In this document: piece after piece, positions 1,891 to 63,214 of the stretch | Numbering within the stretch: position 1 is the stretch's first letter | Layout: every line of letters starts with the position of its first letter | Source of the DNA: Tubiluchus corallicola | Taxonomy: Eukaryota > Priapulida > Priapulimorpha > Priapulimorphida > Tubiluchidae | Length of the DNA stretch: 64,000 nt | Direction of reading: 5' to 3' | Assembly (NCBI GenBank): GCA_030141605.1 | Contig: JAQGDQ010000045.1 | Coordinates: forward strand, 620,001 to 684,000 | Notes under the pieces: model-generated | What the model was told of the DNA's origin: nothing | Seen by the model: the letters and a program-made list of their open reading frames with translations, nothing else | The model's database searches: none | Made by a program: the position numbers and the translations under genes

Positions 1891-3411
1891 TTAATATATC
1901 CCTGGGATTAGTTTATATGGCACTAAATTGCAGTAGTCTTGCCAGTAGTTCTGGTACTTTTTTCTGCACTTTCTATCATCTCTCAAACTTCTGTTCAAAA
2001 GGAAAAATATTAAATATACAGGATATAGAAATGGTACCCAACTAGAGCTCACGGGGCACATTACTGCAGGTAACGTCCAAGTTATGGCAACCAGAATTTC
2101 GAATGCATAGTTCATGTGGCGACTCAGCCCCCACCAACCTGATGCTAAAAGTATATTTTCTACTGATGATCCACTTGATAAACGAGTGGAAACAAATAAC
2201 AGTCTTGGCAGTGCACCCCAAATAATAATGGCTCCATGCAGGTCTCTAGTTTTTTGCTTCTGGTAATCCACCCAATAGTTCAGACCTACTAAACAGAGGC
2301 CTACAAGTCCTATCACTAGTGTTAATAAGCTCCATGGATATGCGACATCAGGCACATTCTCAGTCAAGTAAACACTTGCGATAGAATGAAATGTTGGCTT
2401 GAGACAAACGTGTAGCCACACATTGTAAAATCCTGCTTTATCCATGGTGATATCGATACCTCTCATGTATCCATCCTCCCACAAAAAGAACTTGGCAATG
2501 TAAATACTTTGAATAGCAGTTGTGCAGGTCATTGTCCAGTTACAGTTTCTTTGCTCTATTTCTGCCTTCCAGCACAGTAACACAATCAATTGCCATAGCA
2601 TCATGGAGAAACGCGAGTATATTGCCATTTTAATGTCGATTTTGTCAAAAAGCATTCTTGGGTGCAGTTCCAACCCCCAGTAAAAGTCAAACACCTGGCT
2701 TCCTGATGTTCCTGATCCAGCCCCGGGAGACGGATGTAGACCACCTTTTAAGTACAACATTATGCTAATGATGAAAGCATATGTGTTCAAAGCCCCAGTA
2801 ACTGCTGGCAACATTCGGTAAACGGTGTATGCTGTAAAAGTATCGAAGCCAATGGCCAAGGCTGCCAAAATAACAGTAATGACATAATAACGTACTCCCG
2901 AACGTCTGTAAATAGGCACATAACCAAACCTTGTTGGTTGTCCTTTGTACTCCTCTCCTCCTAACAAACCTTGCGAAAGCAAAGCCCAGAGTGAGAATAT
3001 TCCAATAAATATCCATATTCTTGTATCACCAACCATTTCTAAATGTTGCTCTAAAGGACTGTTGAAAGGTGCAATACACCCCTGCTCCTTATTTTCAGAA
3101 ACATTCACTTCCTTGTATTCTAATGGCGACAAAGATGGTCGAGGTGCTGAGCTACTGGTATTTTTTGGTTGAAATCCTGCAAGGGCTGCTTCCCAGGCTT
3201 TTAAGTAAAACCTAAACCATCCTTCAGACATGGCCAGCCCATGATCACAGCGGTATAGCACAATGAAGCAATGTAACACAATGACGATGTTGGGCCATAC
3301 CATCAGGTATGCGATTGGTCCTCCAACATGATGAAAGTTTCGGGCTAGTTTTTTTCTAAATGATGGTTCACGTTCTGCTCTCTCTAGTCTTCTGATCTGC
3401 ATCCGTGTCAT
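1891..3411 (-). CDS. ERG4/ERG24-family sterol reductase, DHCR7-like
   Basis: Predicted integral ER membrane enzyme that reduces a sterol double bond with NADPH in late sterol synthesis. The single open frame gives 506 residues from the first ATG (3411); the frame also runs five codons further up without an ATG, and a second ATG sits at 3402. Family landmarks are visible in order: a KGQPTRFGYVPIY segment near 155, FDFYWGLELHPRM near 235, IDITMDKAGFYNVWLHVCLKP near 320, LLASGWWGLSRHMNY near 425, and the C-terminal RSLRDDRKCRKKY...VPYKLIPGIY, the classic end of the family. Several hydrophobic segments fit 8-10 membrane helices. The middle and C-terminal motifs look closest to 7-dehydrocholesterol reductase; the N-terminus (HHVGGPIAYLMVWP) recalls ERG4-type C-24(28) reductases. 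The usual Asp after the RHxNY motif is Glu here (NYAFEIL). A Ser/Pro-rich insert near 95-120 is unusual. The gene is intronless, unlike its intron-rich neighbour. Family is firm; exact sterol position is not. Confidence 0.88.
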   Translation of the reverse strand: MTRMQIRRLERAEREPSFRKKLARNFHHVGGPIAYLMVWPNIVIVLHCFIVLYRCDHGLAMSEGWFRFYLKAWEAALAGFQPKNTSSSAPRPSLSPLEYKEVNVSENKEQGCIAPFNSPLEQHLEMVGDTRIWIFIGIFSLWALLSQGLLGGEEYKGQPTRFGYVPIYRRSGVRYYVITVILAALAIGFDTFTAYTVYRMLPAVTGALNTYAFIISIMLYLKGGLHPSPGAGSGTSGSQVFDFYWGLELHPRMLFDKIDIKMAIYSRFSMMLWQLIVLLCWKAEIEQRNCNWTMTCTTAIQSIYIAKFFLWEDGYMRGIDITMDKAGFYNVWLHVCLKPTFHSIASVYLTENVPDVAYPWSLLTLVIGLVGLCLVGLNYWVDYQKQKTRDLHGAIIIWGALPRLLFVSTRLSSGSSVENILLASGWWGLSRHMNYAFEILVAITWTLPAVMCPVSSSWVPFLYPVYLIFFLLNRSLRDDRKCRKKYQNYWQDYCNLVPYKLIPGIY

Positions 3412-4550
3412 GCTGCTTGTTTTCACTTTTTCTGCGTTGCGCCTACAGAGACTCAGAGAGTGAGTGCCTCTACAGTACTACATTAGTTTCTTCCTGCAAT
3501 AAACAGTAAACACATCACTAAAGTGCAAGCTTAAGTTCACAGTCACTGATCTTCATAATCAAGTATGCTACTGCTGCTGCTGTCACATGGCTTTTTATAC
3601 ATGTTGTCTTGTTCTGCCAGAAGCCTCTGAGCCAGATAAAAATAGATATTTACAACGCACTGTCTTGGTTTCACTCTCAGTACTTAGCAGCTTTTGGCTT
3701 CATTGCCTGATTTTGTGCTTACCAGAATAAATCTGCCCTCCAGTGTAGGATAAGTGTATAACAAAAGTTTGCTGAACAATAATATTAACTCAACTGCCAA
3801 ATAAAGTATTAAGTCACAATTTCAAAAATGAACCAAAAAAGGAAGGATGTGAAACAATTTATAGCAAACAAATGTCCGTAAAATTAGGTGAAAATTAACA
3901 TTTGCTTAACATTTTGTTGCTCTAAGAATGCATTTGAGACTGTTCATTTAATGTTGATAGGTGAACAGTGTCTGTTGAGAATTCCTCGCTTGTAATATAT
4001 TATGGGATAGATAAGTACCAGTAGTAAAATTTACAACACAATTAAAATCTACAACTTTTAGTGTAACTTTGGGCTTTGAAAAAAGTTCCTTTATAAAGTC
4101 AAAAATGGTAACAAATTAGAAGCCCAAAAAATTACAAATCTTTGTGAAAAAAATTGAAACAGTTAAATAAAATATTCCACAGTGCTTTTCTTTGTTGCAT
4201 TTTAATTATTAATTTGCTGTACTGTATGTTTTTCACCAACCAGCATTTGTCTTCCAGTTGCAAGAACCTTGCTAACCATTTTAAATCAAGTGGGCATGTG
4301 ACTAAAATATTTCTGAAGAGTTTTTCATTAGAAGAGAACAAATGTGAAGTGATGCAAAATTATGTAGTGATCTATTTTTATGTTTATGTACACAAAAATG
4401 TTCATTGGCATGCTCATAGCCAACATCAGCCAAATAATCATAAATCTATGAAATTTTTTTGCATGGCTAAGTGTACTTAACACTTGCTGTTCATTTTAAA
4501 AAATAAAAAAAACTTGGTAATATGATGCCATTAAATGTCGGCTTATCTAG
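3412..4550. other. intergenic region between divergent genes
   Basis: Contains the promoter side of the minus-strand sterol reductase. I see no TATA box I would defend and no coding frame with recognisable content; small open frames near 4132-4480 are AT-rich chance frames. Confidence 0.5.
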
Positions 4551-4554
4551 TAGC

Positions 4555-5277
4555 CCAAAAAATAATAAAACGTGGAATAACTAATTTGATGGCTGAACTT
4601 CAATAGCTAGCATTCAAAAAGTACTGAGCCTTCTACCAATTGTTCTTTTTCCTCTGGGGAGGCTGTAGTTAGGAAACTGGAGATAGAATTGTTCTAGAAA
4701 ATTAGGGATGACACTGTTCTTAACATTTTAAAAGTTATTGTATATTTTTTCTCTGAAACGTTAGCTCATTTATGCATTCATGTATACATATAATATTAAT
4801 GTAATTATGCACTTGTGATTATGAACTATGCAGCGATGGTCGCAAAATATAGAGAATATTGATGTTTTTGTGAAGGGTATAATCCGCCGTTGCTTGGCAC
4901 TGTCGGATTGGCACTGGCACTGTCAAAAATAATAAAACGTGGAATAACTTATTTGATGATTGAACTTCAATAGCTAGTATTGAAAAAACACTGAGCCTTC
5001 TATCAATTGTTCTTTTTCCTCTGGGGAGGCAGTAGTTAGGAAACTGGAGATAGAATTGTTCTAGAAAATTAGGGATGGTACTGTTCTTAACATTTTAAAA
5101 GTTATTGTATATTTTCTCTCTGAAATGTTAGCTCATTTATGCATTCATGTATTCATATAATATTAATGTAATTATGCACTTGTAATTATGAACTACGCAG
5201 CGCTGGTCGCAAAATATAGAGAATATTGATGTTTTTGTGAAGGGTATAATCCACCGTTGCTAGGCACTGTCGCATTT
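4555..5277. repeat. 366-bp tandem duplication
   Basis: Two copies, about 4555-4910 and 4921-5277, agree almost base for base over 350 bases, including the landmarks CGTGGAATAACT, TTTTTCCTCTGGGGAGG and TTTTTGTGAAGGGTATAATCC, offset by 366-367 bases. They differ by scattered substitutions, so the duplication is not brand new. It sits upstream of the putative first exon of the Kazal/acidic gene. Confidence 0.9.
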
Positions 5278-6043: not shown

Positions 6044-6155
6044 ATACAGAAGTCGCTTAGGCACAGAAGCATGGAGTTGCTTCAATATGCTTTTCCCGTG
6101 ATTTGTGTGCTCTTTATAGTCTCTGAGGTTATGGGGACCACTGATCCTGATGCAG
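6044..6155 (+). CDS. exon with start codon and signal peptide
   Basis: Acceptor TTTTTGCCTAG precedes 6044 and the donor G|GTGAGA follows 6155. Translation from ATG at 6071 gives 28 residues beginning MELLQYAF, with a hydrophobic core (FPVICVLFIVSEV) and small residues before TTDPDA, a typical cleavable signal peptide. The exon ends in phase 1, matching the Kazal exon acceptor. The region was too short to stand out as a long open frame. Confidence 0.75.
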
Positions 6156-9100
6156 GTGAGATTATGTAAATCATGGTATGACAAAGAATGACAAACTTGT
6201 TACAGAACTCTCTCTCAACTGGCCAGAGCTCTTTCAAAAAATCCAAATAATTACGCTATTCACTCTACATATCATAAACTAAGGAAAATGCATAAAAAGC
6301 TTTTGAAGAAAAAACAAAAGCAAGCTAGAAACGAACTTTTATCTATTCTGGAAAACACTAGTCATGACGACCCAAAAATGTTATGGAAGACTTTAGAAAA
6401 AATTGACGGAACTCCACACAATTCAAATTCTATTACCAATGTGACAAAATTTCATAAATATTTCAAGTCGCTGATGACTAAAAATGAAAAGTATCAATTA
6501 TCAATTAGAAATATTGAAAATCATGTAAAAGAGATTAATCAAGCATCCTTTACAAAATTAGACTATTGTATTTCCGAAAATGAAGTCCGAGAAGCAATAA
6601 TTTCATTAAAAAATCCTAAGGCGCCAAGCAAAGATGGAATAATAAATGAAATGATCAAAAGTGGAATTACAGTACTAACACCAACACTAACATTATATTT
6701 TAATTCGGTTTATTCACTCGGAAAATTTCTAGTGGGCTGACTGTCTAATCACACCTATATTAAAGAAAGGAGACCCAACAGATCCCTCAAACTATAGAGG
6801 TATCTCTATTAGTAGCAATCTCGGGAAAGTATTTTGTAAAATTATACATAAAAGACTGGAAAACGACCTAATCGAACCTAACGTAATTAAGAAAGAACAA
6901 ATTGGATTTGGGAAATCGTCACAAACGTCAGATCATATACTTATCTTGAAAACTGTAGTTGATAAATATATTAACCAAGCACGACGAAAATACATATATG
7001 CATGCTTTATTGACCTTAAAAAAGCCTTTGATACTATTTACAGACCTTTTTTATTTTACAAATTACTAAAATATGACTTTGGCGCTAAATTTTACAACAT
7101 AATAAAAAGCATGTACGCCTCCATGATGTGCAACTTAAAATCTCGAATAATAATTTATCTGATTCTTTTCCAGTAAATGTCTGCGTTAAACAGGGATGCG
7201 TATTAATTCCAAATTTATTTAATTTGTTTATAAATGACATCACAACGATTTTTAATGATAAATGCGACCCACTCATATTAAATAACAACTACTTGCAATT
7301 ACTAATGTATGCTGACGATACTGTGGTCTTATCTACTTCCCAGAACGGTTTGCAGAATAGTTTAAATAGCTTAAAACAGGACTGTGATGACTGGTTGCTA
7401 GATATTAACCTAGAAAAAACAAAAGTAATCATTTTCAACAAAGGCGGTCACAGAAATCCAAGCAAAGATTTACTATAGGCCAGGAAAGTATTGAAATTGT
7501 TCAAAATTATAATTACTACGGGATAAACTTTAATGCAAGCCGGTCATTTACCAAGGCAAAAAAAAGAATTATGCAACAAAGCAAGAAAAGCTTTTTTCAA
7601 ATTCAAGCAAAAATTCTGGTGGGATAATTTAAGCTGTAAAATATTAACGCACTTATTTGATAATAAACCAATCGCATTATATGGTTCCGAGTGTTAGTCC
7701 CTGTTGTCGTTTAATAGTAGGAAAATATCAAAAAATAATCAAATTACAGTTGAAAACATATACGATGATTTACCCATGGAATTACTTAACATAAAGTTAT
7801 GTAAGTTCGCTCTTGGCGTCAATAAATTTTCCGTTAATCATGCGGTCAATTGAGAGTTGGGTCGTTTCCCTCTACACGTAGACGTTATAATTAGGACAAT
7901 AAAATACTGACTTAAAATACTGAACTCTCCACAAAATACATTGGTATACCAAACCTACAAAGAAAATAAAATTCTTCTTAACCAAAATACGGGATGTTGG
8001 TTGCAATTTGTAAGAAACATTTTACGTCATTTGGGCTTTTCTCATATCTGGGAACACCAAGGGGTCGATCAAACCAAATCTTTTCCACATGCTTTAAAGG
8101 AGAAACTACAAACAAATTATAAAATTTACTGGAAAGAACGTGTTACAAAAGAAACATGCAAAACAGGCGGAACTAAAAAACTACTAACCTATTCAAAATT
8201 TAAGCAAGAATTTGAAGCCGAGAAGTATATTTTTTTATACATAATCATGTACTAAGATCAAACTTTACTAAACTGCGTATCAGTTCTCACAACTTGTATG
8301 TAGAAAAAGGCCGACACTCGAATATGTAAATACTGCAATGAAGGAAAAATTGAAGATGAAATGCATTTTGTACTTGACGGTAAAAATTACTGCGATTTAA
8401 AGTTAAATTTATTCAGTTCTATTGCGAAAATTTATCCTGCTTTTATTAATCTACCCATGGACCAAAAATTTATTTTGCTGTTAAGAGGTAGTGATTGTGA
8501 AATGACAAACTTAGTGTCAAGATATATTACTGAGTTTTTTTATAAAATGAAATTTGCAAAATTGAGCTTACCTGTTGTTCTATTTAATAGTGCAAGATCT
8601 TCATTATATACAATAATTCTAACGCTTCACTTTAAATGTATGTTACCATTTTGTAAAATGTAATTTTAATATAGTATACAGTATATATTATTTAATTATA
8701 GTTCTACAGTATAAATTTGTTGGACGACGTAATTGCAATTCTAAAATTGTACTAAATTTTGTGTATTAAACTTTGTAAATATCTTAACATAATATAATAT
8801 AATTGAAATATTTAACCACTGTAAATACCGTTTGCTATTATGATTATTATTATTATTATCATTACTGTGTTTTATTGTGTATTGTGTTGACGATTATATC
8901 CCATGTGTGGAATTTTATCTGGGTTTTTATCTGATGCTTTTTTTCATTGTAATGTATTGCATTGTTTATGTAATATTTTGTAACTTGTAATGGCTTGCAA
9001 ATCGTCTATAAATATATTATCTGTAATCTTAATACTCAGAATAGTAACCATACCAGATGCGCAACCCTTAAATTTTTTTATTACCTTTACTTACTATGAA

Positions 9101-12100
9101 GATGGCTAGTAATGTTATTTATGAATGAATAATTAATTCAGTTGGAGTTTTGCACAATTAGAGAAAATGACAGGAAATAGCCACATTGTCGTTCGACTTG
9201 CAATGAATCTATGTAGTGATCTGAAAAAGATGATTAAGGGAGGGTACTTTAAAAAGACTCAAACTATTTGTCAAGGGCTGACTGATCTCAGCTCAGGGAC
9301 AGATCAAAACTTTGACTCTATTAATAGATGCAAAATTTGTTTCAGTATATTCTTTCACTGAAGCCTTCATTGTTCAACAACTATATTGTATACTGTGAAT
9401 AATAGCGATAATCTCAATTATTTCTATAAAGGTTCTAGCTGTACTAGCACCAGTGGTCTCAATTCATTCGCTTCAGATGGCAACGTTCAACTTAATAGAG
9501 AAGATATTGAAAGAGGTGACTTAGAAACAAATGATGATAATAGCAATCCTGGTGGAAGCAATACATACAACAATGATTTCAATCACAATGTCAGTGCAGC
9601 AGGACATGAGGAGGGAGGTGTATCAAATTTGGGTACAAGTTTTATTGGGAGTTCTGATGTGGAAGAGAAATGGAATAATGACGATACTTCCAACCGCGGC
9701 TCAAATGATAATGTGCAACATGCTCCTGACACTTTTAGTCATGATCATAATGATGGTGAACAAATTAGTCCAATTAGTGAGCTTGAAAAGAGTGGTGCAT
9801 ACAACACTGGTGGAAGCACTGATGGTAGTTCTTATAGCTTTGGCAGTGACAACAATAACGGAAATGATGGGAATGGTAACCTTATCAGTTGGAAAGAAGA
9901 GGACACTAAAATTAATGGTAGTAGAGAAGCTGAAGATGATGCAGCCAGTCATAAAGATACATCATCTGACCGTTCTGACGAAGAAGAAAAATGGAATAGT
10001 GAGACATACTCAAGTGGTATCATAAACGAAATTACTGAAGGTACTGACCCAAATGAAGGACAATATGAGAATAGCAAATATAACAGTGATGGAGGTGCTG
10101 ATGATGGTGGTGTTGGTGACAAAGAAGTCAGAACTGATGCAGAACAGAATTTGAATAACGGAGATGTTTCTATCATCGATTTAATTGATGATACAGGCGA
10201 CAGTTCGAGCATTCTTGGGACGGTTGATGGCAAAGAAACATTGCCCAATGCTGCTCAATATGAAGATGTTGAGACTGAGATTAACGTAGAAACAAATAAT
10301 GGTCCTAACAATGGTAATAGCGATGCTGGAACTGTTAATGAACAGGACGAAAGTAATACTAATGACAGTTTCAATGGTGATGGGACTCATAACAAAGAAA
10401 CTGTCCCAAATTCAGAACAGGGGGAGAGTGATGGAGAGATGATGTACACCCATTTAGATGGTAACACGGGTGATAGTCGGCAAATCACTAGTGGAAATAA
10501 TAGTGACAAAACCCAGGTTGCTAATGAAGAGGATTTGAGTGGTAATGATAATAACAAACACAGAAATGGCAGTTCTAACCAGGATGAGATTGGTGAAGAA
10601 ATGCTTAATGTAAAACAGGTAAATGGCGAAATTAACAGTAACTTCAATGAAAAGATGGAGGCAAATGATAGTCTTGATAATATTGATGCTGTTAATGAAT
10701 GGGATAAAAGTGATACTGATAGCAAAGGTGCAAACAGTGATGGTGGTACTGATAGCAGAGAAAATATACCTAACCCAGAACAGGAGGAGAATGACGGAGA
10801 TATGTTCAGCAACAATTTGAATGAAAACAGTAGTGGTTCCGATACTTCTATTCATAAAGACGGTGACAAAACTCAATCAAATAATGAACGTGAAGAAAGT
10901 GGCCATGATAATAACGAAGATGTAAATGGTGGATTCAGTGATGGCAGCACTGATCAATCCCAGGAAGAACAAAATGAGAATAGCCGAGATATGCCTAGCA
11001 GCAGTCCAGATGACAACAAAGGTGATCATTACGATGTTTATAGTGATAATAATGCTCACAAAAGTTATCCACCTATTAGTGTTGAGGATGAGAGCAAAGA
11101 AACAAATGGCAGTACCAGTGATAGTGATCATGAGATTGATAATAACGAAGCTTTCAAAGCAGAACAAGAGCAGAATAGTGGAGACATATCTAATAGTAAC
11201 CTGAATGGTAACACAGATGCTGATTCTAATGCTTCTAGGGTTAATAATGATGACCAAACTCAGCCTATTAATGAACATGATAAGAGTGGTGAGGATAACA
11301 TCGATGAAGGCATTAATGTCTCCAGCGATCATGAAAGTTATAACGAGCAAACTAGATTCAACACAGAACAGAAGCCGAGTAATGGAGATACATCTAAGAC
11401 TTATTCAATTCATAATGAAGGAGATGCTTCCCATGCTTCCAGTGCTGATGGTGATGATGAAAGTGATAATAAAAAAGATATAGAGGAAGATGAACTAATA
11501 GAATCAGCAATGGGACAAACTCAGAATGGTGAGACAAACGTTGGTCTCGACAGTTCAGTGGAAAAAAACAGTAGTGGTGATAATGCTGAAGTTGAAGTTG
11601 ATGCTGGTGATAATTCAAGTTTTGAAGAAGGAGGTAACGATTCGCAATCCTGCGTGCTTTGCAAGGTTTTTAACCTACCATTGCATGAACATTATATTTA
11701 TCCAGTCTTGCTTTGTTCTTGCAACTGTTTTGTTAGTGAATGGCTAGCACATTTTTGGCGAAAGTGAATGGGTAGTAGGTGTTTAGCGTGGCATTGTAGT
11801 TTTGTAGTTTTAATTGTGGCATGCTTTAATAGTATAAATCCTGTAGACTAGTAAGAATAGAAGTCTGTAGAGTGGAGAGGAAATTTTTAAGATCCTTTAA
11901 ACAATTTGCAGAAAAAAGATATTATTCCTTAACTTTTCTTCGATTTATGTCTTGGTTGGTTATTCGATTGCAAACTGATCACTTGATTAATTTCACTACT
12001 ATTTCTTACTCCTCAATAAAAATTGCATAGAGATCCATAAAATTTGTTTTCTATTCAAAGTAATTTTCAGCTTGCACTAAAGTTATCAATAAATAATTGA

Positions 12101-14196
12101 TTGCTATTGAATTCACATTGTTTCCTCATCTTCTAATAATGGGAAAAGGTTTTGTAGAGAATTTTGGTTTTATAAAGAAATGTTATTTCTTAGTATTTTT
12201 TTATTTCAACCAGGAAGTCAAAATGAAAATAAACCAAAACAAAATTATTGCTTTGTAATTATTACTATTAAACTCAAAGTTTTGTATGGAAAGATTCATA
12301 TTTTGGTTTTTCCATGCTAAAATAGCTGCTTAAATGAATGACTGTACTTTGCTAGTTTGCCCTTGTTTAGAATAATGGCTTAAGATGAATGCTTTACTTT
12401 CCCAGTATGCCCTTGCATAGATTACTTTGTTTTCCAGTATGTCCTTATTATTACTTATATTTTGCTAGCACATGTTTTGTAAAAATGTGTGACTCGCAGT
12501 TAACAACTATATTGTATACTGTGAAGTCAGTTTTTGATCACACTTGTGTAATTTGGACCTAGAACTAGCAGTCTTATTTTAATGAAAATTTTATGATTTT
12601 GGCTGAATTTGGTTTTCAACATTTAAGTGACAGAGTATAGCAGTGAGTGCATGCTTATTTTAATTTGTCAACTAACTGATGAACTTGGAAAGACAAACTC
12701 ACATTACAATGTGTTACATTACAGATTACCTGACGTCATAGTCACTTTCACTTGAAATGTAATGTCATATTTATCATTGCTCTGGTTTTCCTCTTATTGG
12801 TAGTGTTTATATAGTTTGGTACTTTGAATTGAAAACCAGTATCTGGCCTGAATGGCACGGACTTCTATATGTAAGTGGTGTAGAGAACTTGCCCATTTGT
12901 CAAAGCCAATCTTTTAAAATAATTATTAGTGTGCTAAATAAATCCTAGCCAGTTTCGTGTCATGATGACTGTCATCGCCCTAATTCTTAAAATAGAAAGG
13001 CAAAATTTAAAAGGCACAATGTAGCAGGAGCTTGATTGAAAATATTTGTTGACTTTCCCTGTCATTGCAATGTTCCATTGTCACAGAAGGCCATGCTGAA
13101 TTCCTCAGATGTTGGTTGGCCCATTAATCACCAGTGCATCACCCAAAATGTGTAGAGAAGGGAACTATGCTGTCAGGCGTAGGCTTTTTTGGCCAATTAA
13201 ATATGTGATGCAGAAATTAGCTACAAAGTCTCTGCACAGTGGAAATGGCAGTGGCAGTGGCATGGTGGGTCTGATTTCACACAAGTAGACCCGACCAAAT
13301 TTTGCGCGTCTGCTGTCATCCCTTACCCCACAACAAAATTGCAGCATTATTCACTAGACCTCAACTTTGTTAAGTTTAAGATTGTCTGTTAAACTGAATT
13401 ATAAAGAAGTATGCATTGTAGTACACCAAGTAATGACAGATATTCAAAATTATGCTTAGTTAAGAATTTAGTTGTTCAATATCGCTCACTTATAGCTTGC
13501 TAGAAAAGCTAGTGACCAAACATCTAATTTGTAAATTATAATAATTATGTGCAAATATAACAACATTTTGTTGAATTTTATCCATTAAGTAAGTAAAGCC
13601 CTTAAGTTCTTGAGGTAGGCCTACAGTTTGTGTTTTTACTGTGCTACTTATGAGTAATTAATTTCTGTCTTTTTCACATTTTAGTCTGCACATTTAGCAC
13701 CATCCTGTGCTGCAAGCATCCCTCTACATTTGTAAGCCTGCCACTGCTGTCACTTTTAACCGGAAAAAGCTGAAACTTACTGCTGTGCCTTTGGCCCTGA
13801 GATTGCGTGGGAGACACAGACAATCACCTGAATTAAAGTCATTGCATTTATGCAAAAGCCTTTTTTGAACTGTGCAGTTCCTAAAACTAAAACGCGCTAC
13901 AGCAATGTTTAGACTCAAATGAGCAGTATGGCTTTATCTGAAACGTTTTTTTTTATTAAAATAGTTATACTAAAACAATAATTATCATTGCAAAGTTGCA
14001 GAAAAAATTCTATCGTAATTCGGTGGCCTCTAACCTTTGTTGAATACAGTTGCCCTGAAATGCAGCCAGAATCGTTAATGATATCTTACTGTACATGTAT
14101 TAACCCTAAAAGTTGTGGTAAGCAGCTATTCCAGTTTTGATAATAATATTTACTTAGTGTAGATCACAGATATGTATATATATATATATATGCTAT

Positions 14197-14266
<70 letters not shown>

Positions 14267-17200
14267 ATAGCATATATACTTATTTACTGAAACAAACAGT
14301 ATCATGCTTAAGAGTGATAATCACAGTTTTATGTGTTTTACAATTACAATCACTTTTTATGTAGGCTCAGATCTGTGTGTCTGCACACAAGAATATGATC
14401 CAGTCTGTGGAGAAGATGATAAGACTTATGGCAACATATGCCAACTACAATGTGAAACAACGGTAGCTATTGCGTACTCGGGTGAATGCAGAAAAGGTAA
14501 AAATAATAATTTTGCAAATTGCAACAGGTAATCTAGAAATATGTTATAATGCTTCTTTTAAAAAAGATATTCATGCATTTTAATTAAGCGTAACAACACT
14601 AACTCCAACTACTGGTCGAGGGACCTCTGTCAATTGATACAGAAATTGTTCTAGTACATTCACATAAAGTTTCATTATGATCCTTTGCAAATTTGCAGAT
14701 CTTTAGGGTTTTTTTTGAAAATGATCATTATTGCCACTACCTTAATTTCAAAATGGCAGATTGAGAATCTTGCTCCGTTAATCAATGCAGAATATATTCT
14801 AGTATATTCTCATGAAGTTACATGACAATCCATTTGAAACTTGTGGAAACTTTTTTCAAAAGTTTATTCCCCAACAAGAAGAACAATATCCAGGTGAGTG
14901 GCAATTAGGTCTTTAACCAAAGAAAGGCTGGTGCCTCTCATAAAATTATTAGGGCAATATGTGATACGTAATTTGTTCTTCTAGAGACTTAGATGTGCAC
15001 TATTATTAACTTTTTTACTTTGTTTAGAAAATTCGTAGTAAACATTGATCGAAATTATTAGCAAAGTAAAAGAATTAATTATTTTTCTGCTTCCAGGAAT
15101 TCATTAATGTACGTTTTAGACTGCATAAACAAATTCAAAAAGTGTTATCCGAATTCCTGAGCATTGAAATGCACACACATATTTTTTAAACTTGTCAAAC
15201 AGCAAAACACTATACTGCGATACTACTATAAACAAAAGGGAAATTGTTGTGTGAAAAAGCGCTTATGCAGCTTTCGCGAATAATGTCAATTTATTTTCAG
15301 CTTTTGGATTGATATGACCAGTTGGGGTGGTCGAAAAATTTCCACATTTTTAAATAGGTGCCAGATGGCACCATGTTTATCACATTGGTGATTTTGTATT
15401 TAAGTTGATTCGTATTTTCATTGTTTTATTATAAATATGTCTTTATAAATCGCTTCAGGTCTTCATGCAACTTAAGTGCAGTAAACAGCAGCATACCGCA
15501 TCACACTGAGATCTTTTGCTAGAGCTCATTGCAGGAGCTCCCCTGTAGTTAATAGTTATCTGGCACATTATTCATACTATAATACCTGCTAATGAGTGAT
15601 AAAAAACTTAGTAACAGTAAATATACAGGAAGGCCTGATCCGCTACTGTATGTTTTTGTTTTAGATGAAGTTTTTGAGGATGCTGCAGGTAGCAGTGTCC
15701 ACGATCAACAAGTTTTATATGGTAGTGATGTTGGCAAAATACCTTTATATGTTGCTGACTCTAAACATATTGCAACCAATCAAAGCATAGATTTGGTCAA
15801 TGAATATATAAGTGCAAACACAAATGAGGATGGTTTTGGCATTCATACTTTAACAGATGAACCTTATATTTTAAAACATTTGCATGATGGTTATACTGCT
15901 GGTAAAAATGAAACTAACATAAGTAGCATCACTAAAGATTTTGAAAAATATCATTCTCGTGATTCCTTTTCTGGAAATGTTGCTACTGGAATGCATGAAA
16001 CTTATTTAAATCATAGTTTATACGATACTACTGTCAGAAAATTTGAAAATGCTTTTCACTCTACTGACCCTCATTACCGTCAAGGCACTTTGGGTATTGA
16101 TTCAATCACTCAGAAAATCAATACTGACAATTTTAATTCTCAACCCTACTTTAATGGATATGGTGCTGCAGTGGAGACTGAAATTCCTTTATATGGCAAT
16201 ACTTTTCAACGTCACGAGAACTACCACACTAAGGATTCTAATATTAGTAATATTGATGTTAGAATAAATGGGAGTGTTTTCAAAGCTAATGTTCCAATTA
16301 GTGAAACCGATCTTCGAAAATCTTTGCATGATACTGATAATGGTGAGAAACCTGGAATTGCTCAAAATTCTGATTTACATGGGAGCTATGATCCTAATTT
16401 CTTTGGCGCTGAAAGTATTAATGCAACAGCAACCAAAGATGGTTTAAGAGCAGCTGTTTATATGGATGAAACCAATTCTGATGCTGAAAATGTTTATACA
16501 TCAGTACATGCAGGTGATTATAGTTCTGGCATGTCTTTGGAAAAAAATAGTTATCAGGGAAACATGTACAATGCAGCCATTTCTGAGCATGAGAAATCTT
16601 ACATTACTAGTTACGATGATTTGACCAAAACTGGAAGTACTGTTAAACAAAAATGGAATGTTTATATTTTCGATCATAACCACACCTCAAGTACTACTGC
16701 TGCATATATTAAAACTGTGACAGATGTCTTTGATGCTCACATTGATAAATTTGAGAAATTTACTGAACAGGTTGATGGTAAAGCAGATATGAGTAATTTA
16801 GAGGATCATGGGTATGATTCTTATGTGACATATGGTGGGGATGCTAATGCAGCAAAAAAATTTCATGTTGATGCTGATCGTTTAAGAGATGAAAACTTTG
16901 ATCAAGTTAATTTATATGGTACGGAAGATACAAATCCATATTTCGTTGATGATACAGATAAACAAAGTGCTTTGAAACCTGCTGAAGAAGAGAGGCACTA
17001 TATTAATGCTAGTGCAGAAGACAGATATCCATATACTACTGATGATGCAGAAAAACAAACTGGTACAGAAATTACTGAAAAAGAGTGGTATGATGTTAAT
17101 GTTGGTGCAGAAGGCAAACCTTACTATATTATTGATGATGCAGATAAACAGACTGCTTCTAAAATTTATGAAGAAGAGTGGTATGATATTTATACTAGTG

Positions 17201-20118
17201 CAGGAGGCAAACCTTACCATATTATTGATGATGTAGATATACAAAATACTTCAAAATTTGCTGAAAAAGAGTGGTATGATTTTTATGCTAGTGCAGAAGG
17301 CAAACCTTCATATATTATTGATGATACAGACAAAGAAAGTCCTAGAATGGTGGATGAAAAAGAGCTGTTTCTATATGTAAATCATAATAATCACACTGCT
17401 GGTGTAATTGGTGCTAGGGGTGATAGTGCGCTAGAGGGTTATCATGACAGTAATGTTGATACACAAGGTAAACATTTTCATATAATTTTTGATACAGATA
17501 AAACTAATGTTGCAAAAGTTGTTGAACAAGAGTGGCATGGTATTAATTTATCTCTAAACATAAACTACCACAACCACACTTCATTTTCATTTGCCAGAGA
17601 TAATTCCACAGCCACTATAACTTATACTGCGAATAATTTGAGTAGCACTACTTATAGCTTTAAAAATAATACAGAAAAAAAGTCTGAGTATGGTTTTGTG
17701 AACGATATTATTGGTATAAACAAAAACAATGACAGTACAAATTTCCAATCTGATATTTTAGGTGAGAGCACTAACGGCATAGTAAATACTGGTCAAACTG
17801 AAAATCATTATTTTAATGATGGTAAGAAAAGTGAAAGCGATAATCTCAATTATTTCTATAAAGATTCTAGCAGTACTACCACCAGTGGTCTCAATTCATT
17901 CGCTTCAGATGGCAACGTTCAACTTAATACAGAAGACATTCAAAGAGGTGACTTAGAAACAAATGATGATAATAGCAACCCTGATGGGAGCAATACATAC
18001 AACAATGATTTAAATCACAATGTCAGTGCAGAAGGACATGAGGAAGGAGGTGTATCAAATTTGGGTACAGGTTTTATTGGGAGTTCTGATGTGGAAGAGC
18101 AGTGGAATAATGATGATACTTCCAACCGCAGCTCAAATGATAATGCGCAAGATGCTCCTGACACTTTTAGACATGATCATAATGATGGTGAACAAATTAG
18201 TGAGTTTGAAAAGAGTGGTGCATACAACACTGGTGGAAGCACAGATGGTAGTTCTTATAGCTTTGGCAGTGACAACAATAATGGAAATGATGGGAATGGT
18301 AACCTTATCAGTTGGAAAGAAGATGACACTAAAATTAATGGTAGTAGAGAAGCTGAAGATGATGCAGCCGGTCATAAAGATACATCATCTGACGAAGAAG
18401 AAAAATGGAATAGTGAAACATACTCAAATGGTATCATAAACGAAAATACTGAAGGTACAGACCCAAGTGAAGGACAATATGAGAATAGCAAATATGACAG
18501 TGATGGAGGTGCTGATGATGGTGGTGTTGGTGACAAAGAAGTCAGAATTGACGCAGAACAGAATTCGAATAACGGAGATGTTTCTAGCATCGATTTAATT
18601 GATGATACAGGTGACAGTTCGAACATTCGTGGGACGGTTGATGGCAAAGAAACATTGCCCAATGCTGCTCAAAATGAAGATGGTGAGACTGAGATTAACG
18701 TAGAAACAAATAATGGTCCTAACAATGGTAATAGCGATGCTGAAACTGTTAATGAACAGGACGAAAGTGATACTAATGACAGTTTCAATGATGATGGGAC
18801 TCATAACAAAGAAACTGTCCCAAATTCAGAACAGGCGGAGAATGGTGGAGAGATGATGTACACCCATTTAGATGGTAACACGGCTGATAGTCGGCAAATC
18901 ACTAGTGGAAATAATAGTGACAAAACTCAGGTTGCTAATGAAGAGGATGTGAGTGGTAATGATAATAACAAACACAGAAATGGCAGTTCTAACCAGGATG
19001 AGATTGGTGAAGAAATGCTCAATGTAAAACAGGAAAATGGTGAAGTTAACAGTAACTTCAATGAAAAGATGGAGGCAAATGATGGTCTTGGTAATAGGGA
19101 TGCTGTTAATGAATGGAATAAAAGTGATACTGATAGCAAAGGTGCAAACAGTGATTTCAGTGATGGTGGTACTGATAGCAGAGAAAATATACCTAACACA
19201 GAACAGGAGGAGAATGACGGAGATATGTTCAGCAACAATTTGAATGAAAACAGTAGTAGTTCCGATACTTCTATTCATAAAGACGGTGACAAAACTCAAT
19301 CAAATAATGAACATGAAGAAAGTGGCCATGATAATAACGAAGATGTAAATGGTGGATTCAGTGATGGCAGCACTGATCAATCCCAGGAAGAACAAAATGA
19401 GAATAGCGGAGATATGCCTAGCAGCAGTCCAGATGACAACAAAGGTGATCATTACGATGTTTATAGTGATAATAATGCTCACAAAAGTTATCCACCTATT
19501 AGTGATGAGGATGAGAGCAAAGAAACAAATGGCAGTACCAGTGATATTGATCATGAGATTGATAATAACGAAGCTTTCAAAGCAGAACAAGAGCAGAATA
19601 GTGGAGACACATCTAATAGTAACCTGAATGGTAACACAGATGCTGATTCTAATGCTTCTAGGGTTAATAATAATGACCAAACTCAGCCTATTAAGGAACA
19701 TGATAAGAATGGTGAGGATAACAGCGATGAAGGCATTAATGTCTCCAGTGAGCATGAAAGTGATAACAAACAAACTAGTTTCAACACAGAACAGAAGCCG
19801 AGTAATGGAGATACAACTAAGACTTATTCAATTGATAATGAAGGAGATGCTTCTTATGCCTCCAGTGATGATAGTAATGATGAAAGTGATAATAAAGAAG
19901 ATATAGAGGAAGATCAAGAAATAGAATCAGCAATGGGGCAAAGTGAGAATGGTGAAACAAACATTGGTGTTGACAGTTCAGTGGAAAATAACGGCAGTGG
20001 TGATAATGCTGAAGTTGAAGTTGATGCTGATGATAATTCAAGCAGTGAAGAAGGAGGTAACGATTCACAATCCTGCGTGCTTTGCAAGGTTTTTAACCTA
20101 CCATTGCATGAACCTTAA
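6071..20118 (+). CDS. secreted Kazal / giant acidic protein (gene-level model)
   Basis: Model by joining exons 6071-6155 (signal peptide), 14365-14496 (Kazal) and 15665-20118 (acidic, ends in TAA). All three junctions are GT-AG and all are phase 1, and the joined frame is open, giving about 1,556 residues. The product would be secreted: a cleavable signal, one Kazal-type domain of the serine-protease-inhibitor/follistatin fold, then about 1,480 residues with almost no cysteine and extreme Ser/Asp/Asn/Glu content. An alternative last exon (21195-23845) with the same phase would give about 955 residues. Acidic secreted proteins of this type are often extracellular-matrix, mucus or mineral-associated; that role is inference from composition only. 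No database family was recognised for the acidic part. The transcript may also continue into the REJ receptor exons downstream instead of ending here. Confidence 0.6.
6165..8700 (+). mobile_element. decayed non-LTR (LINE) retrotransposon A
   Basis: Open pieces in shifting frames read as a LINE ORF2 from just before reverse transcriptase to the C-terminus. Visible are a pre-RT segment (MLWKTLEKIDGT, about 6380), LKNPKAPSKDGIINEMIK (about 6607), a palm motif IDLKKAFDTI (about 7010), VKQGCVL (about 7187), the catalytic YADD box in LLMYADDTVV (about 7308), and a C-terminal Cys/His-like region (MHFVLDGKNY, about 8361). Several frameshifts and stops make it inactive. It begins within about ten bases of the donor of the signal-peptide exon, so it occupies the 5' end of that intron. 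No terminal poly(A) or target duplication was clearly found. Confidence 0.9.
8701..9375. other. intron sequence, possible LINE 3' tail
   Basis: AT-rich with short ATT/ATG repeats near 8840-8865. It may include the untranslated 3' tail of LINE A up to about 9020. No coding signal was recognised. Confidence 0.5.
9376..9399 (+). repeat. 24-bp direct repeat, left copy
   Basis: Begins AACAACTATATTG and ends TACTGTGAA. An identical 24-base copy lies at 12502-12525. Between them is a block matching 17836-20928. The pair therefore looks like a target-site duplication around an inserted duplicate. The first two bases could belong to the source homology, so the true length is 22-24. Confidence 0.85.
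9400..11767 (+). pseudogene. displaced 3' duplicate of the acidic exon (copy 1)
   Basis: From about 9404 this is nearly identical to the second part of the large acidic exon (from 17836). The frame is open for about 790 codons with no stop. It lacks its own ATG near the start: the first in-frame ATG is hundreds of codons inside, and no phase-1 acceptor with a convincing pyrimidine tract precedes it. The stop used by the parent (TAA after HEP) is lost (HEHYIYP...), so the frame reads on 28 codons to 11767. Length differences from the parent are multiples of three (for example three codons each near EQIS, SSD and SD). It lies in the intron before the Kazal exon. Best read as a partial duplicate without its 5' half; a transcribed exon joined by an unusual acceptor cannot be excluded. 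Confidence 0.75.
11768..12503 (+). repeat. duplicated 3' UTR of copy 1
   Basis: Matches 20119-20928, the sequence after the stop of the large acidic exon, with scattered substitutions and small gaps. The parent's AATAAA at 20692 is changed here (ACTATTAAAC), while a different AATAAA is present at 12015-12020. Homology stops at the right-hand 24-bp direct repeat. Confidence 0.85.
12502..12525 (+). repeat. 24-bp direct repeat, right copy
   Basis: Exact second copy of the 24 bases at 9376-9399, located precisely where homology to the parent 3' flank ends. Confidence 0.85.
12526..14160. other. intron sequence without recognised content
   Basis: AT-rich, with no domain, splice-bounded exon or named repeat that I can support. 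Short minus-strand frames near 13165-13347 and 13724-13918 have no recognisable content. Confidence 0.5.
14184..14279. repeat. long perfect inverted repeat of TA/CATA microsatellite
   Basis: TGCTATATAC at 14191 is mirrored by GTATATAGCA at 14263-14272, with ACAT repeats on the left arm mirrored by ATGT repeats on the right and a TA run at the centre. The arms are about 48 bases each, centred near 14231. It ends about 85 bases before the Kazal exon acceptor. Confidence 0.9.
14365..14496 (+). CDS. Kazal-type domain exon
   Basis: Acceptor TTTTTATGTAG, donor AAAAG|GTAAAA, phase 1 at both ends, 132 bases. With the G of the previous exon it encodes 44 residues. The cysteine pattern is C-x-C-x7-C-x10-C-x3-C-x13-C with the signature PVCGEDDKTYGNICQLQC, a single Kazal fold as in serine-protease inhibitors and follistatin-like proteins. 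The segment between the second and third cysteines, which normally carries the reactive site, reads TQEYDPV. A symmetrical 1-1 exon is a classic shuffling module. Inhibitory activity is not proven by the sequence. Confidence 0.9.
14497..15664. other. intron between Kazal and acidic exons
   Basis: Ends in a good acceptor, TGTATGTTTTTGTTTTAG. An in-frame ATG occurs at 15592, 73 bases upstream of the acceptor, so an alternative unspliced start is formally possible, but no signal peptide would then be encoded. Nothing else recognised. Confidence 0.55.
15665..20118 (+). CDS. giant acidic exon (copy 2), likely terminal exon
   Basis: A 4,454-base exon entered in phase 1 and ending at TAA. The frame continues uninterrupted for 1,484 codons including stop. 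The first half (to about 17835) is Asn/Asp/Tyr/His-rich with many NxS/T sites and contains about five 31-residue repeats (16915-17350) built on EWYD...GKPYYIIDDADK. The second half is Ser/Asp/Asn/Glu/Gly-rich with recurrent motifs such as NSGDxSxSNLN and DNNKGD. It ends in the only cysteine cluster, SQSCVLCKVFNLPLHEP. No membrane segment or known domain was seen. The second half was the source of the duplicate at 9400-12503, and it is homologous to the next acidic exon. If the upstream ATG at 15592 were used, the protein would be 1,508 residues without a signal. Confidence 0.75.
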
Positions 20119-21194
20119 TTTTATCCAGTCTTGCTTCGTTTTTGCAACTGTTTTGTTAGTGAATGGCTAGCACATTTTTGGTGAAAGTGAATGGGTAGTA
20201 GGTGTTTAGCGTGGCACTGAAATTTTTGTAGTTTTAATTGTGGTATGCTTTTAACAGCATAAATCCTGTAGACTAGTAAGAAAAGAAGACTGTAGAGTGG
20301 AGAGGAAATTTTTAAGATCCTGTAAACAATTTGCAGAAAAAAGATATTATTCCTTAACTTTTCTTCGATTTATGTCTTGGTTGGTTATTCGATTGCAAAC
20401 TGATCACTTGATTAATTTCATTACTATTTTGTACTCATCAATAATAATTGCATAGAAATACATAAAATGTGTTTTCTATTCCAACTAATTTTCAACTTAC
20501 ACTAAGGTTATCAATAAGTAATTGATTGCTATGGAATTAATATTGTTTCCTCATCTTCTAATAATGGGCAAAGGTTTTGTAGAGAATTTTGGTTTTATAA
20601 AGAAATGTTATTTCTTAGTGTTTTTTATTTTAACCAGGAAGTCAAAATGAAAACAAACCAAAACAAAAATGATTGCTTTGTAATTATTACTAATAAACTC
20701 AAAGTTTTGTATGGAAAGATTCATATTTTGGTTTTTCCATGCTAAAATAGCTGCTTAAATGAATGACTGTACTTTGCTAGTTTGCCCTTATTTAGAATAT
20801 TGGCTTAAGATGAATGCCTTACTTTCCTAGTATGCCCTTGCGTGGATTACTTTATTTTCCAGTATGTCCTTATTATTACTTATATTTTGCTGGCACATGT
20901 TTTGTAAAAATGTGTGACTGGCAGTTAATACTGTTTTTATATTAACTATTCTAGATTAGAATATTTTGTTTAACATAGCGTGGTGCAATGTTGTCAGGAC
21001 AAAGATTGAATTAATGCTTCTGATTTGGTGTACCAATGCCGAACAGTAAAAATAGTCTGTCTTTTTTTAATTAATATTGTGTGGTTTTGCTATATTTTTT
21101 GGATTGTGTGCCCATACCCTCTGGGTGTTTGTTTTCCTGTGTATAGGTGCATAATGCAGTTCTAGAATCACTAACTTAAAGATTTAAGTTGTAG
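20119..21194 (+). other. 3' UTR of copy 2 and intron to copy 3
   Basis: The first 570 bases fit a 3' UTR ending at the poly(A) signal near 20692. The rest is AT-rich and ends in an acceptor for copy 3, with a branch-site-like CACTAAC at 21171. Confidence 0.5.
20692..20697 (+). terminator. poly(A) signal after acidic exon copy 2
   Basis: AATAAA about 575 bases after the stop; supports the view that copy 2 is a terminal exon. The equivalent site in the displaced duplicate is mutated. Confidence 0.45.
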
Positions 21195-23845
21195 ATACAT
21201 CTAACAATTTTAATGATAACACAGGTGATGGCTTTGATACTTCTGTTGGCAATAATAGTGACAAAACTGTGCCTATTATTGAACGGGGGGAGAGTGGAGA
21301 GGATAATAGCAGTGGAACCATTAATAGTCTCAGAGATGATGAGATTGTTGACAAAATAACTATACCAAATGCAGAACAAAATGCAAATAGTGAGAATATG
21401 TCTATCATTGATTTGAATGATAATGAAGGCGATAGTTATCGTGCCTCTGGCAACGATGTTAGTGGTGAAAGTGATGATGAAGAAGGTGATAAAGATAAAG
21501 ATGACGAAGATGTAAATGACAAAGAAGATGATAATAAAAGGGATGGTTCTCATGTTTCTGATGGTGATGATAATGAAGAAAGTGATAAAGATAAAGATGA
21601 CAAACATATAGATGAGAGAGCAGATACTAACAAAGGGGATGAGTCTCATGCTTCTAGTGACGATGATATGGATGAAAGTGATGACGAAGAAGATAATAAA
21701 GAGAAAAATGACAAAGGTATAGGTGACAGAGAAGTTGATAACAAAGGAGATGGTTCTCATACTTCTAGTGGCAATGATAGTGAAGAAAGTGATGTTGAAG
21801 AAGGCGATAAAGATAAAGATGACAAAGAAGGTGATAATAAAGGACATGATTCTCATGCTTATGACAGTGATAAAAATGATGATGGAGAAGATAATAAAGA
21901 TGAAAATGGTAAAGATATAGATGTCAAAGAAGGTGATAATAAAGGAGATGGTTCTCATACTTCTAGTGGCAATGATAGTGAAGAAAGTGATGTTGAAGAA
22001 GGCAATAAAGATAAAGATGACAAAGAAAGTGATAATAAAGGAGATGATTCTCATGCTTATGACAGTGATGAAAATGATGATGGAGAAGATAATAAAAATG
22101 AAAATGGTAAAGATATAGATGTCAAAGAAGGTGATAATAAAGGAGATGGTTCTCATACTTCTAGTGGCAATGATAGTGAAGAAAGTGATGTTGAAGAAGG
22201 CGATAAAGATAAAGATGACAAAGAAGGTGATAATAAAGGACATGATTCTCATGCTTATGACAGTGATGAAAATGATGATGGAGAAGATAATAAAAATGAA
22301 AATGGTAAAGATATAGATGTCAAAGAAGGTGATAATAAAGGAGATGGTTCTCATACTTCTAGTGGCAATGATAGTGAAGAAAGTGATGTTGAAGAAGGCG
22401 ATAAAGATAAAGATGACGAAGATGTAAATGACAAAGAAGATGATAATAAAAGGGATGGTTCTCATGTTTCTAATGGTGATGATAATGAAGAAAGTGATAA
22501 AGATAAAGATGACAAACATATAGATGACAGAGCAGATAATAACAAAGGGGACGAGTCTCATGCTTCTAGTGACGATGATATGGATGAAAGTGATGACGAA
22601 GAAGATAATAAAGAGAAAAATGACAAAGGTATAGGTGACAGAGAAGTTGATAACAAAGGAGATGGTTCTTATACTTCTAGTGGCAATGATAGTGAAGAAA
22701 GTGATGTTGAAGAAGGCGATAAAGATAAAGATGACAAAGAAGGTGATAATAAAGGACATGATTCTCATGCTTATGACAGTGATAAAAATGATGATGGAGA
22801 AGATAATAAAGATGAAAATGGTAAAGATATAGATGTCAAAGAAGGTGATAATAAAGGAGATGGTTTTCATACTTCTAGTGGCAATGATAGTGAAGAAAGT
22901 GATGTTGAAGAAGGCGATAAAGATAAAGATGACAAAGAAGGTGATAATAAAGGACATGATTCTCATGCTTATGACAGTGATGAAAATGATGATGGAGAAG
23001 ATAATAAAGATGAAAATGGTAAAGATATAGATGTCAAAGAAGGTGATAATAAAGGAGATGGTTCTCATACTTCTAGTGGCAATGATAATGAAGAAAGCGA
23101 TGATGAAGAAGGTGACAAAAATAAAAATAAAGATGACAAAGAAGGTGATAATAAAGGAGATGATTCTCATGCTTATTACAGTGATGAAAATGATGACGAA
23201 GAAGGTGAAAAAGATAAAAATGGCAAAGATATAGATGAAAAAGGTGCTAATAAAGAAGATGGTTCTCATACTTCTAGTGGCAATGATAATGAAGAAAGCG
23301 ATGATGAAGAAGGTGACAAAAATAAAAATAAAGATGACAAAGAAGATGATAATAAAGAGGATGATTCTCATGTATCCAATGGTGATGGTAATGAAGAAAG
23401 TGATAAAGATAAAAATGACAAAGATATAGATGATAATAAAGGGGATGGTTCTCATGCTTCTAGTGATGATGACAACAATGATGAAAATGACGATGAAGAC
23501 AATAATGACAAAGATGGTAAAGATGGTAAAGATAAAGATGATAAAGGTGAGAAGGAAGATGGTAACAAAATTAATGGTTCTTATGCCTCTAATGATAGCG
23601 ATAGTGGTAAAAATGGTAATGAAGGTGAAGAAACAGATAAAGAAAGGAAAAAAACGAAGGAACAGAAAGAAAAAGGTGAGACTAACTCTGTTGAAAAATA
23701 TCATAATAGTCATAATGACAAAGTTGAAGTTAACGCAAATTCAAGCATCAAGGGAAGAAGTAATGGCTCGCTGTGCATCTGCAAAATCCTGCATGTTGTG
23801 CAAAGTTTCTGTACATACCCTTGCATGAATATCATTGTTATTTGA
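21195..23845 (+). CDS. second giant acidic exon (copy 3), likely alternative last exon
   Basis: Acceptor GATTTAAGTTGTAG gives a phase-1 entry reading DTSNNFNDNTGDGF, homologous to the acidic repeats of copy 2. The exon is 2,651 bases and open for 883 codons including stop. It is dominated by Asp, Glu, Lys, Asn, Ser and Gly, made of 66-residue (198-base) units containing SHTSSGNDSEESDVEEGDKD and HAYDSDENDDGEDNK. These units sit inside a 912-base higher-order repeat (21723-22634 and 22635 on). The C-terminus reads SLCICKILHVV...NIIVI; relative to copy 2 it is out of frame, because the +1 frame holds KSCMLCKV followed by a stop. Joined to the signal and Kazal exons it would give about 955 residues. 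The pyrimidine tract is weak, so usage is less certain than for copy 2. Confidence 0.65.
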
Positions 23846-24545: not shown

Positions 24546-53848
<29,303 letters not shown>

Positions 53849-62283: not shown

Positions 62284-63214
62284 CTAATCAACAGAAAACA
62301 ATAATTTTCAAATGGTAATGTAAAATTTATTTATAAATATTAACAATTAATAGTAAGATACACTAAAATTAGGGCAAATTTATGATTTTGCTGGGAGAAC
62401 TTGAAATGAAATTCAAAAACCAAAAAAAAATTATAACTTACAGTAGTTTAAAATACAAATAGCATATATTTATTACAATAGTTTAAAATACAAATAGCAT
62501 ATATTTCAGTACTTTAAAAAATACAATTTAAACAACACATCACAATTTATTTAAATAACAGCATTTAAAAGAATTTTAATGAGTTGGCTAAATGTGTAGT
62601 AACAGATAAGCTAACCCAGAGAAGAACAGACAGAAAAAGTTCTTTCACAGTAGAATACTGCATTTGGGAATGGTTGACATATCAGAATGAAGTGATGACA
62701 CAAACACATTTAGTACCATCACTAATAATAATCTTGACATTAAGATTATAATAATTATAACGAAGTGCTCAATCTACATTACGACATACCAAAATCCTGA
62801 TATCTACCAAAATATTTGCTCCTGATAGCCTGTAATACTCCACTACAATGCAGTAAACGTTATATACCAGACATATTTTTAAGCCGTCACATGCCAAAAT
62901 GTCAATATCTGCGATTAATATTGGATATTTTGCAGGGAGCATTTAAAAAGCGGAGTTAGAATGATTTTTAGGATTTTATAATTAGATGTTACAGAATTAA
63001 ACAATTAGAACCAGAGTGAAATTATCTGCAAATGAAGGAAGTTCTTTTAAAGTTATTACAAACTACAGCAGCTCAGTAAGGCAGATCAAACAACAAGATA
63101 TTGACTTATGAAAATGGATACCCATTAACAAACTTTTTGTAAATCTTTTATTACATAAACAAGAATTATAATAAGTATATGTGCAGATTTATGTGCAAAA
63201 TTATGCAGATTTCT
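62284..63214. other. DERA intron, short duplication
   Basis: Contains two head-to-tail copies of a 36-base unit (TAGTTTAAAATACAAATAGC...TTTATTACAA) at 62443-62510. No upstream DERA exon could be identified. Confidence 0.5.

Follow-up and report, generated by a model that had tools for sequence, protein, structure and literature searches.

On contig JAQGDQ010000045.1 of the priapulid Tubiluchus corallicola, a signal-peptide exon and a Kazal exon are followed on the same strand by two very large open frames, here called A and B, and the question raised by this arrangement is to what the inhibitor-like head encoded by the two small exons is spliced. The window analysed is the whole stretch of 64,000 nucleotides (nt) from position 620,001 to 684,000 of the contig, and all coordinates given below are counted within it. 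In a preliminary description, the head had been assigned to A and B as alternative last exons for secreted acidic proteins. The locus is real and somewhat unusual, and its meaning is changed by a downstream gene for a membrane protein with a REJ domain, by a further acidic copy, D, and by the duplication history. With close to an even chance of being right, our reading is that secreted acidic isoforms arise from this REJ gene by alternative 3'-terminal exons, i.e., by intronic polyadenylation, and that the acidic exon has spread by local duplication.

In the full-length transcript, the Kazal exon would be joined to exon C (starting at 24610) and onwards to about 30 exons encoding a REJ-domain protein with a single membrane span. 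In other transcripts, the same Kazal donor would be spliced to A, which lies within the same 10.1-kb intron and which, having its own stop codon and poly(A) site, would give a secreted protein composed of the Kazal head and an acidic tail of roughly 1,480 residues. B, a diverged tandem copy of the 3' part of A, may be a second alternative terminal exon, and D, located upstream of the Kazal exon, would be a recent third copy. Every splice join, the use of the poly(A) site and the translation of B and D are steps we infer; the frames, phases, domains and duplications are read from the sequence, and the downstream exons are modelled.

The head, the acidic frames and the downstream gene

When the + strand of window positions 1-24600 was scanned for exons that start with ATG, encode a hydrophobic beginning and end in a phase-1 donor scoring above 1.5, a single signal-type exon emerged, the one at 6071. 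The Kazal exon passes the Pfam profiles Kazal_1 (PF00050; E 3.2e-7, 30.7 bits versus a cut-off of 21) and PF07648 (24.1 bits versus 22.8), and its acceptor, with a score of 1.3, belongs to the top 12% when compared with the AGs in window 25-53 kb, which also serve as reference for the other acceptors mentioned below. Sequence matches in the PDB are small Kazal inhibitors and ovomucoid. Like the non-classical inhibitors among them, i.e., the elastase inhibitor 1y1c, the tryptase inhibitor 1an1 and the silk protease inhibitor 2 (2m5x), the Kazal exon has six Cys and a C-x-C start, the latter being taken here as the mark of the non-classical group, and the core CTxEYxPVCGxDxKTYGNxC is in common with ovomucoid. 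Because the P1 residue would be Gln, assuming that the usual Kazal numbering applies, proteases of the trypsin or chymotrypsin type would not be expected to be inhibited strongly. In the 343.5-Mb assembly, 70 matches to the Kazal query had E values of at most 0.001; the closest one other than the exon itself is 69% identical to it, and no close second copy is among the 70.

From stop to stop, A is open over 1511 and B over 885 amino acids (aa), whereas the longest + strand frames obtained in 100 first-order Markov simulations per stretch were 131 and 104 aa, respectively; both frames are far longer than expected by chance. Their designation as acidic is appropriate for B (38.5% Asp plus Glu, 13.3% Lys plus Arg) and for the second half of A (25.1% Asp plus Glu, 15.4% Asn), whereas the first half of A (721 aa) is only moderately acidic at 16.6%. 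The N-terminal half of A is Tyr-containing and bears 93-nt repeats at 16917-17381, and the C-terminal half is rich in Asp, Glu, Asn and Ser. B consists of 20 tandemly arranged units, each 28-43 aa long, followed by a final stretch of 54 aa, with every spacing of its repeats (families D1 and D2) being a multiple of 3. Up to the tail, not a single Cys occurs in the 1,463 residues of A or the 847 of B. In a charge-hydropathy plot, both halves of A as well as B are on the disordered side and a control enzyme on the ordered one; the acidic tails are probably disordered. A Pfam search of A and B gave no match at E up to 0.1. Predicting the first half of A with AlphaFold from no alignment resulted in a mean predicted local distance difference test score of 30.2 with no confident part, which tells only that a confident fold is lacking. 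The acidic product would be a secreted polyanion, of the calcium- or matrix-binding kind, with an inhibitor-like head.

Downstream of B, exons were chained into a model by codon score and splice scores. A start in phase 1, with the first exon at 24610, was narrowly best (396.1 versus 390.7 and 386.8). The REJ profile PF02010 (cut-off 25) is found in an 898-aa segment at 44.6 bits (E 9.8e-12, profile positions 12-217 of 452) as well as in a 214-aa segment of the spliced model at 42.1 bits (E 6e-11), the domain spanning exons 37585-42485. As exon C has to be preceded by a phase-1 exon, the signal and Kazal exons would be its natural head, and with this head serving C, the acidic exons would lie in an intron of the membrane-protein gene. 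Hence, contrary to what had been supposed, the acidic exons are probably not the only ones served by the head, which is also the sole one found for the REJ gene.

Close to the membrane, the motif HLTDF resembles, as we assume, the end of a GPS domain; this likeness is at motif level, and with E values up to 10 allowed, Pfam matched GPS in neither the 523-aa second segment nor the full model. PLAT was matched neither in the two segments and the full model (E up to 10) nor in the last exon (E up to 0.1). By eye, one hydrophobic span precedes the stop at 53848, and the model, which may miss exons, contains no multi-span part. The PDB sequence search with the second segment resulted in a single match (E 0.56). 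When the sequence from exon C to 30.0 kb was compared with the assembly, 5 of 5 matches were at the locus itself, with no close second copy among them. A phage protein search with the Kazal exon and exon C found none, and from 147 pattern matches of exon C in bacterial and archaeal contigs, 0 were confirmed. An extra Cys-rich exon suspected near 26420 was rejected by the frame check. Besides, one of the introns in the REJ gene model contains a minisatellite (40562-41406, period 39 nt, 21.6 copies), whose period, being divisible by 3, gives rise to long chance frames (218 aa).

The phase-1 GT-AG borders previously given for the signal exon, for both ends of the Kazal exon and for A and B were confirmed in coordinates and phases (Table 1). 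The phase-1 donor of the Kazal exon fits the phase-1 acceptors of A, B and C, making these three its possible partners, and in the gaps between Kazal exon and A, A and B, and B and C, no phase 1-1 coding exon above the cut-offs was found. As an argument, phase agreement is informative for A and C but says nothing about B. Inside B, 98 of 130 GTs (75%) and 177 of 254 AGs (70%) are in phase 1, and phase agreement as support for B was rejected because the composition of this frame alone gives phase 1 for most of these sites. The phases do allow either acidic exon to join the Kazal exon in frame; the T-rich acceptor of A has a score of 1.7 (top 9.6%), whereas in B, the phase is near-automatic and the acceptor average.

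Table 1. Coordinates of the head, the acidic frames, their copies and the downstream exons in the window
Feature	Position	Strand	Remarks
Signal-peptide exon	6071-6155	+	strong phase-1 donor, CAG|GTGAGA; sequence MELLQYAFPVICVLFIVSEVMGTTDPDAG
LINE-type element, broken	6192-8663	+	in intron 1; extent is that of its frames
D direct repeat, left copy	9376-9399	.	24 nt
Insert D	9400-12501	+	94% copy of A 17836-20928 (3' half of A and following sequence)
D direct repeat, right copy	12502-12525	.	24 nt
Kazal exon	14365-14496	+	phase 1-1, 44 aa, six Cys (translated exon)
Acidic exon A	15665-20118	+	phase-1 acceptor TTTTGTTTTAG|AT (AG 15663-15664); TAA stop 20116-20118
Candidate phase-1 donor	20057-20058	+	AAGGAG|GTAACG, 3.9 bits, near the end of A
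AATAAA	20692-20697	+	574 nt after the A stop; basis of the terminal-exon reading
Acidic frame B	21195-23845	+	AG 21193-21194, weak acceptor; TGA stop 23843-23845
Exon C	24610-24756	+	Cys-rich; phase 1 at both ends; earliest exon found for the downstream membrane-protein gene
Further modelled exons	25429-53848	+	30 modelled exons counting C; approximate model
Last modelled exon	53232-53848	+	transmembrane segment and Pro-rich tail

Copies of the acidic sequence

Instead of the two acidic exons described before, three acidic frames exist, namely D, A and B. D sits between the signal and Kazal exons, is bordered on either side by one copy of a perfect direct repeat of 24 nt and has an open frame of 801 aa (9362-11767). 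It begins within the coding sequence of A, runs beyond the A stop and does not end in a poly(A) tract, and thus resembles a copy of DNA type and not a retrocopy. Site differences between A and D amount to 104/2217 in the coding part, 3/62 in the tail and 46/809 in the later sequence.

The first 320 nt of B are collinear with A 19602-19920 at 68% identity, short repeat stretches of B match A 19830-19920 at 73-82%, and a 48-nt block around the tail (A 20066-20112) is 79% alike in both. The AG|AT border of B aligns with GGA-GAC inside the A coding sequence. Most likely, B originated from the interior of A as a copy truncated at its 5' end and without an inherited acceptor; the phase of its border would then be inherited from coding sequence, and B would have grown by tandem duplication of internal units. 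Past the 48-nt block, homology between A and B is suggestive at most, with scores of 71 and 60 (shuffle maxima 82 and 61, respectively) in a comparison that took the start in B at 23741, the GT corresponding to the A donor being at 23760. Intron likeness was considered upstream of A versus B (z -0.8) and of C versus A (z -0.6) and rejected.

From these origins, it might be argued that only A works as an exon and that B and D are non-functional truncated copies which owe their openness to a recent origin or to repetitiveness. This explanation, which we consider distinctly unlikely, is in line with both copies starting inside the coding sequence of A and lacking its acceptor, with the average acceptor of B and with the possibility that the openness of D is due to chance, as introducing 104 random substitutions left its frame open in 121 of 2000 simulations. 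It is at odds, however, with the A-D indels, where, leaving out two 6-nt gaps at the alignment ends, all three inside the coding stretch are of 9 nt and thus multiples of 3, while all four after it are of 1 nt. Moreover, B is about 32% diverged from A in their collinear part, yet it is open over 880 codons with units of whole codons.

Terminal exon, internal exon or nested gene

Large size is usual for last exons, and the AATAAA downstream of the A stop provides a candidate poly(A) signal. After B, ATTAAA and AATAAA are found at 24175 and 24504, respectively. Several observations weigh against alternative terminal exons in the proposed form. Both hexamers are frequent by chance, with eight in 12000-15664, outside the acidic frames. 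The acceptor of B has a score of -1.4, and 49% of the reference AGs are equal or better. The training pieces for the exon model were picked by eye, and the model leans towards them. Scanning the full 1687-aa model as a whole returned Kazal families only and no REJ at E up to 10, presumably a filter effect, as the segments with identical sequence score well by themselves. Substitutions between A and D are spread evenly over the codon positions (35, 36 and 33), with a ratio of non-synonymous to synonymous substitution rates of 0.74, and the A-B differences over 102 codons are similarly distributed (31, 37 and 35). Purifying selection on the acidic sequence appears weak at best; with indels in threes but even substitutions and the above ratio, the reading frame between A and D seems kept and the constraint on amino acids weak. 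The tails are not conserved, as D has lost the A stop and the tail of B is shifted by a 13-nt indel. Finally, due to a fair phase-1 donor about 60 nt 5' of its stop, A could be internal.

In the latter case, which is unlikely but deserves to be weighed, A and perhaps B would be very large cassette exons within the REJ membrane protein, A extending from 15665 to 20056 in phase 1-1 and being followed by B and/or C, and in the ectodomain, the acidic disordered stretch would separate the Kazal part from the Cys-rich one. With its score, the GTAACG donor at 20057 falls among the modelled donors, the acceptor of exon C is in phase 1, the stop codon differs between A and D, and the A-B gaps just 5' of this point are of 15 and 6 nt, whereas the first one 3' of it is of 13 nt and frame-breaking. 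On the other hand, internal exons of 4.4 kb are generally rare, and a phase-1 donor near the end of A is unremarkable given eight others of at least 3.9 bits in its 4.4 kb. The corresponding GT in B is below the score cut-off of 0. The 48-nt block, located past the donor, is more alike in A and B than the collinear coding start and mildly favours more than intron sequence at this place, although coding stretches are as alike, the repeats reaching 82%. On sequence grounds alone, a terminal exon seems likelier than an internal one by a factor of a little under two.

It is very improbable that the acidic frames are driven by a promoter of their own and constitute an independent gene residing within a REJ-gene intron. 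The A frame is indeed open for 82 nt upstream of its acceptor and includes an ATG there, but this start is, by eye, without a signal peptide and would leave the T-rich acceptor unused, and the scan of window 1-24600 on the + strand revealed no second signal-type exon.

Alternative terminal exons are thus the reading followed here, and from the earlier proposal of secreted acidic proteins sharing one head, the signal/Kazal head, the in-frame acidic frames and the fit to alternative last exons can be retained. In its widest form, possible albeit doubtful, this reading comprises one head with two unlike products, a REJ membrane receptor on the one hand and, from intronic terminal exons, between one and three very large, disordered and acidic secreted proteins on the other. 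The acidic family would be spreading within the gene, B having made coding sequence its splice border and D having been inserted with a 24-nt target duplication. Polyanion and receptor would share a binding head and might be counter-regulated by the choice of terminal exon.

Surroundings of the locus and known systems

Upstream of the head, a single 528-aa frame on the - strand (1894-3477), pointing away from the Kazal gene, belongs to the ERG4/ERG24 sterol reductase family (E 5.2e-48) and is presumably like animal DHCR7. A 300-nt direct repeat of 94% identity (4558-4857 and 4925-5224) is present upstream of the signal exon and a palindromic AT/GTAT microsatellite (14175-14270) directly 5' of the Kazal exon. 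In the broken long interspersed nuclear element (LINE)-type element of intron 1, RVT_1 is matched on two separate frames (E 9.8e-16 and 1.5e-16), and further broken LINE-type elements were recognised by eye at 60087-63999. Rfam and tRNA scans of the window found none. A tblastn comparison of the model, A and B with 14 loci (L001-L014; 60 rows) gave, outside the window's own L001, no match for A or B and only Kazal-region matches for the model, up to its residue 116. A Kazal/REJ paralogue suspected on contig C1805 was rejected, as the Kazal exons there belong to a multi-Kazal gene (C1805:60001-80000, - strand; L011 and L012), for which a ZP-like domain and a membrane span were noted by eye in later exons. 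Downstream of the window, a frame starting at L014 9732 (+) is presumably the beginning of a ribosomal protein L15-like gene.

Unless the head and the downstream exons are read jointly, the locus resembles two or three genes. If the joins are real, it would exemplify the sharing of one head by a soluble polyanion and a receptor and, moreover, represent a route to new secreted acidic proteins of the skeleton, mucus or egg-coat kind, in which a low-complexity intronic exon borrows the signal peptide and inhibitor-like head of a membrane protein and then multiplies. Among the literature matches listed, titles and abstract beginnings mention neither a gene combining Kazal and REJ nor an acidic exon pair of this kind, and those pairing 'receptor for egg jelly' with 'Kazal' are unrelated by title.

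The closest comparison is with membrane versus secreted immunoglobulin M (IGHM), where, as outlined in the literature, isoforms are made by intronic polyadenylation and a competing intronic terminal exon gives the secreted form (PMC5928244). By analogy, one upstream head would lead to a secreted form via an intronic terminal exon and to a membrane form in the full-length transcript. Unlike IGHM, where the truncation adjoins the transmembrane domain, the terminal exon of the locus described here would be a multi-kb acidic repeat exon, in two or three copies and far upstream of the membrane part, and its joins are predicted. With REJ/polycystin-1-type proteins, including the REJ skeletal-matrix protein outlined for Acropora digitifera (PMC4890752), the model has the REJ domain within a large ectodomain in common. 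In contrast to these proteins, it shows N-terminal Kazal and Cys-rich exons and one hydrophobic span, with no match to PLAT, WSC, PKD repeats or GPS and no multi-span part. Coral skeletons are described as holding such a REJ membrane protein together with acidic secreted proteins (PMC4890752), the Asp-rich ones among the latter being SAARP, SAP and CARP (PMC4890752, PMC7853314). Unlike these, the acidic frames of T. corallicola are also rich in Asn, Ser and Gly, in B also in Lys, and are combined with a Kazal head. As far as these proteins are outlined there, the likeness of the acidic frames to them, i.e., being secreted (predicted here), Asp/Glu-rich and of low complexity, is one of composition, and a matrix role of the acidic product would be reasonable by analogy to the coral skeleton only.

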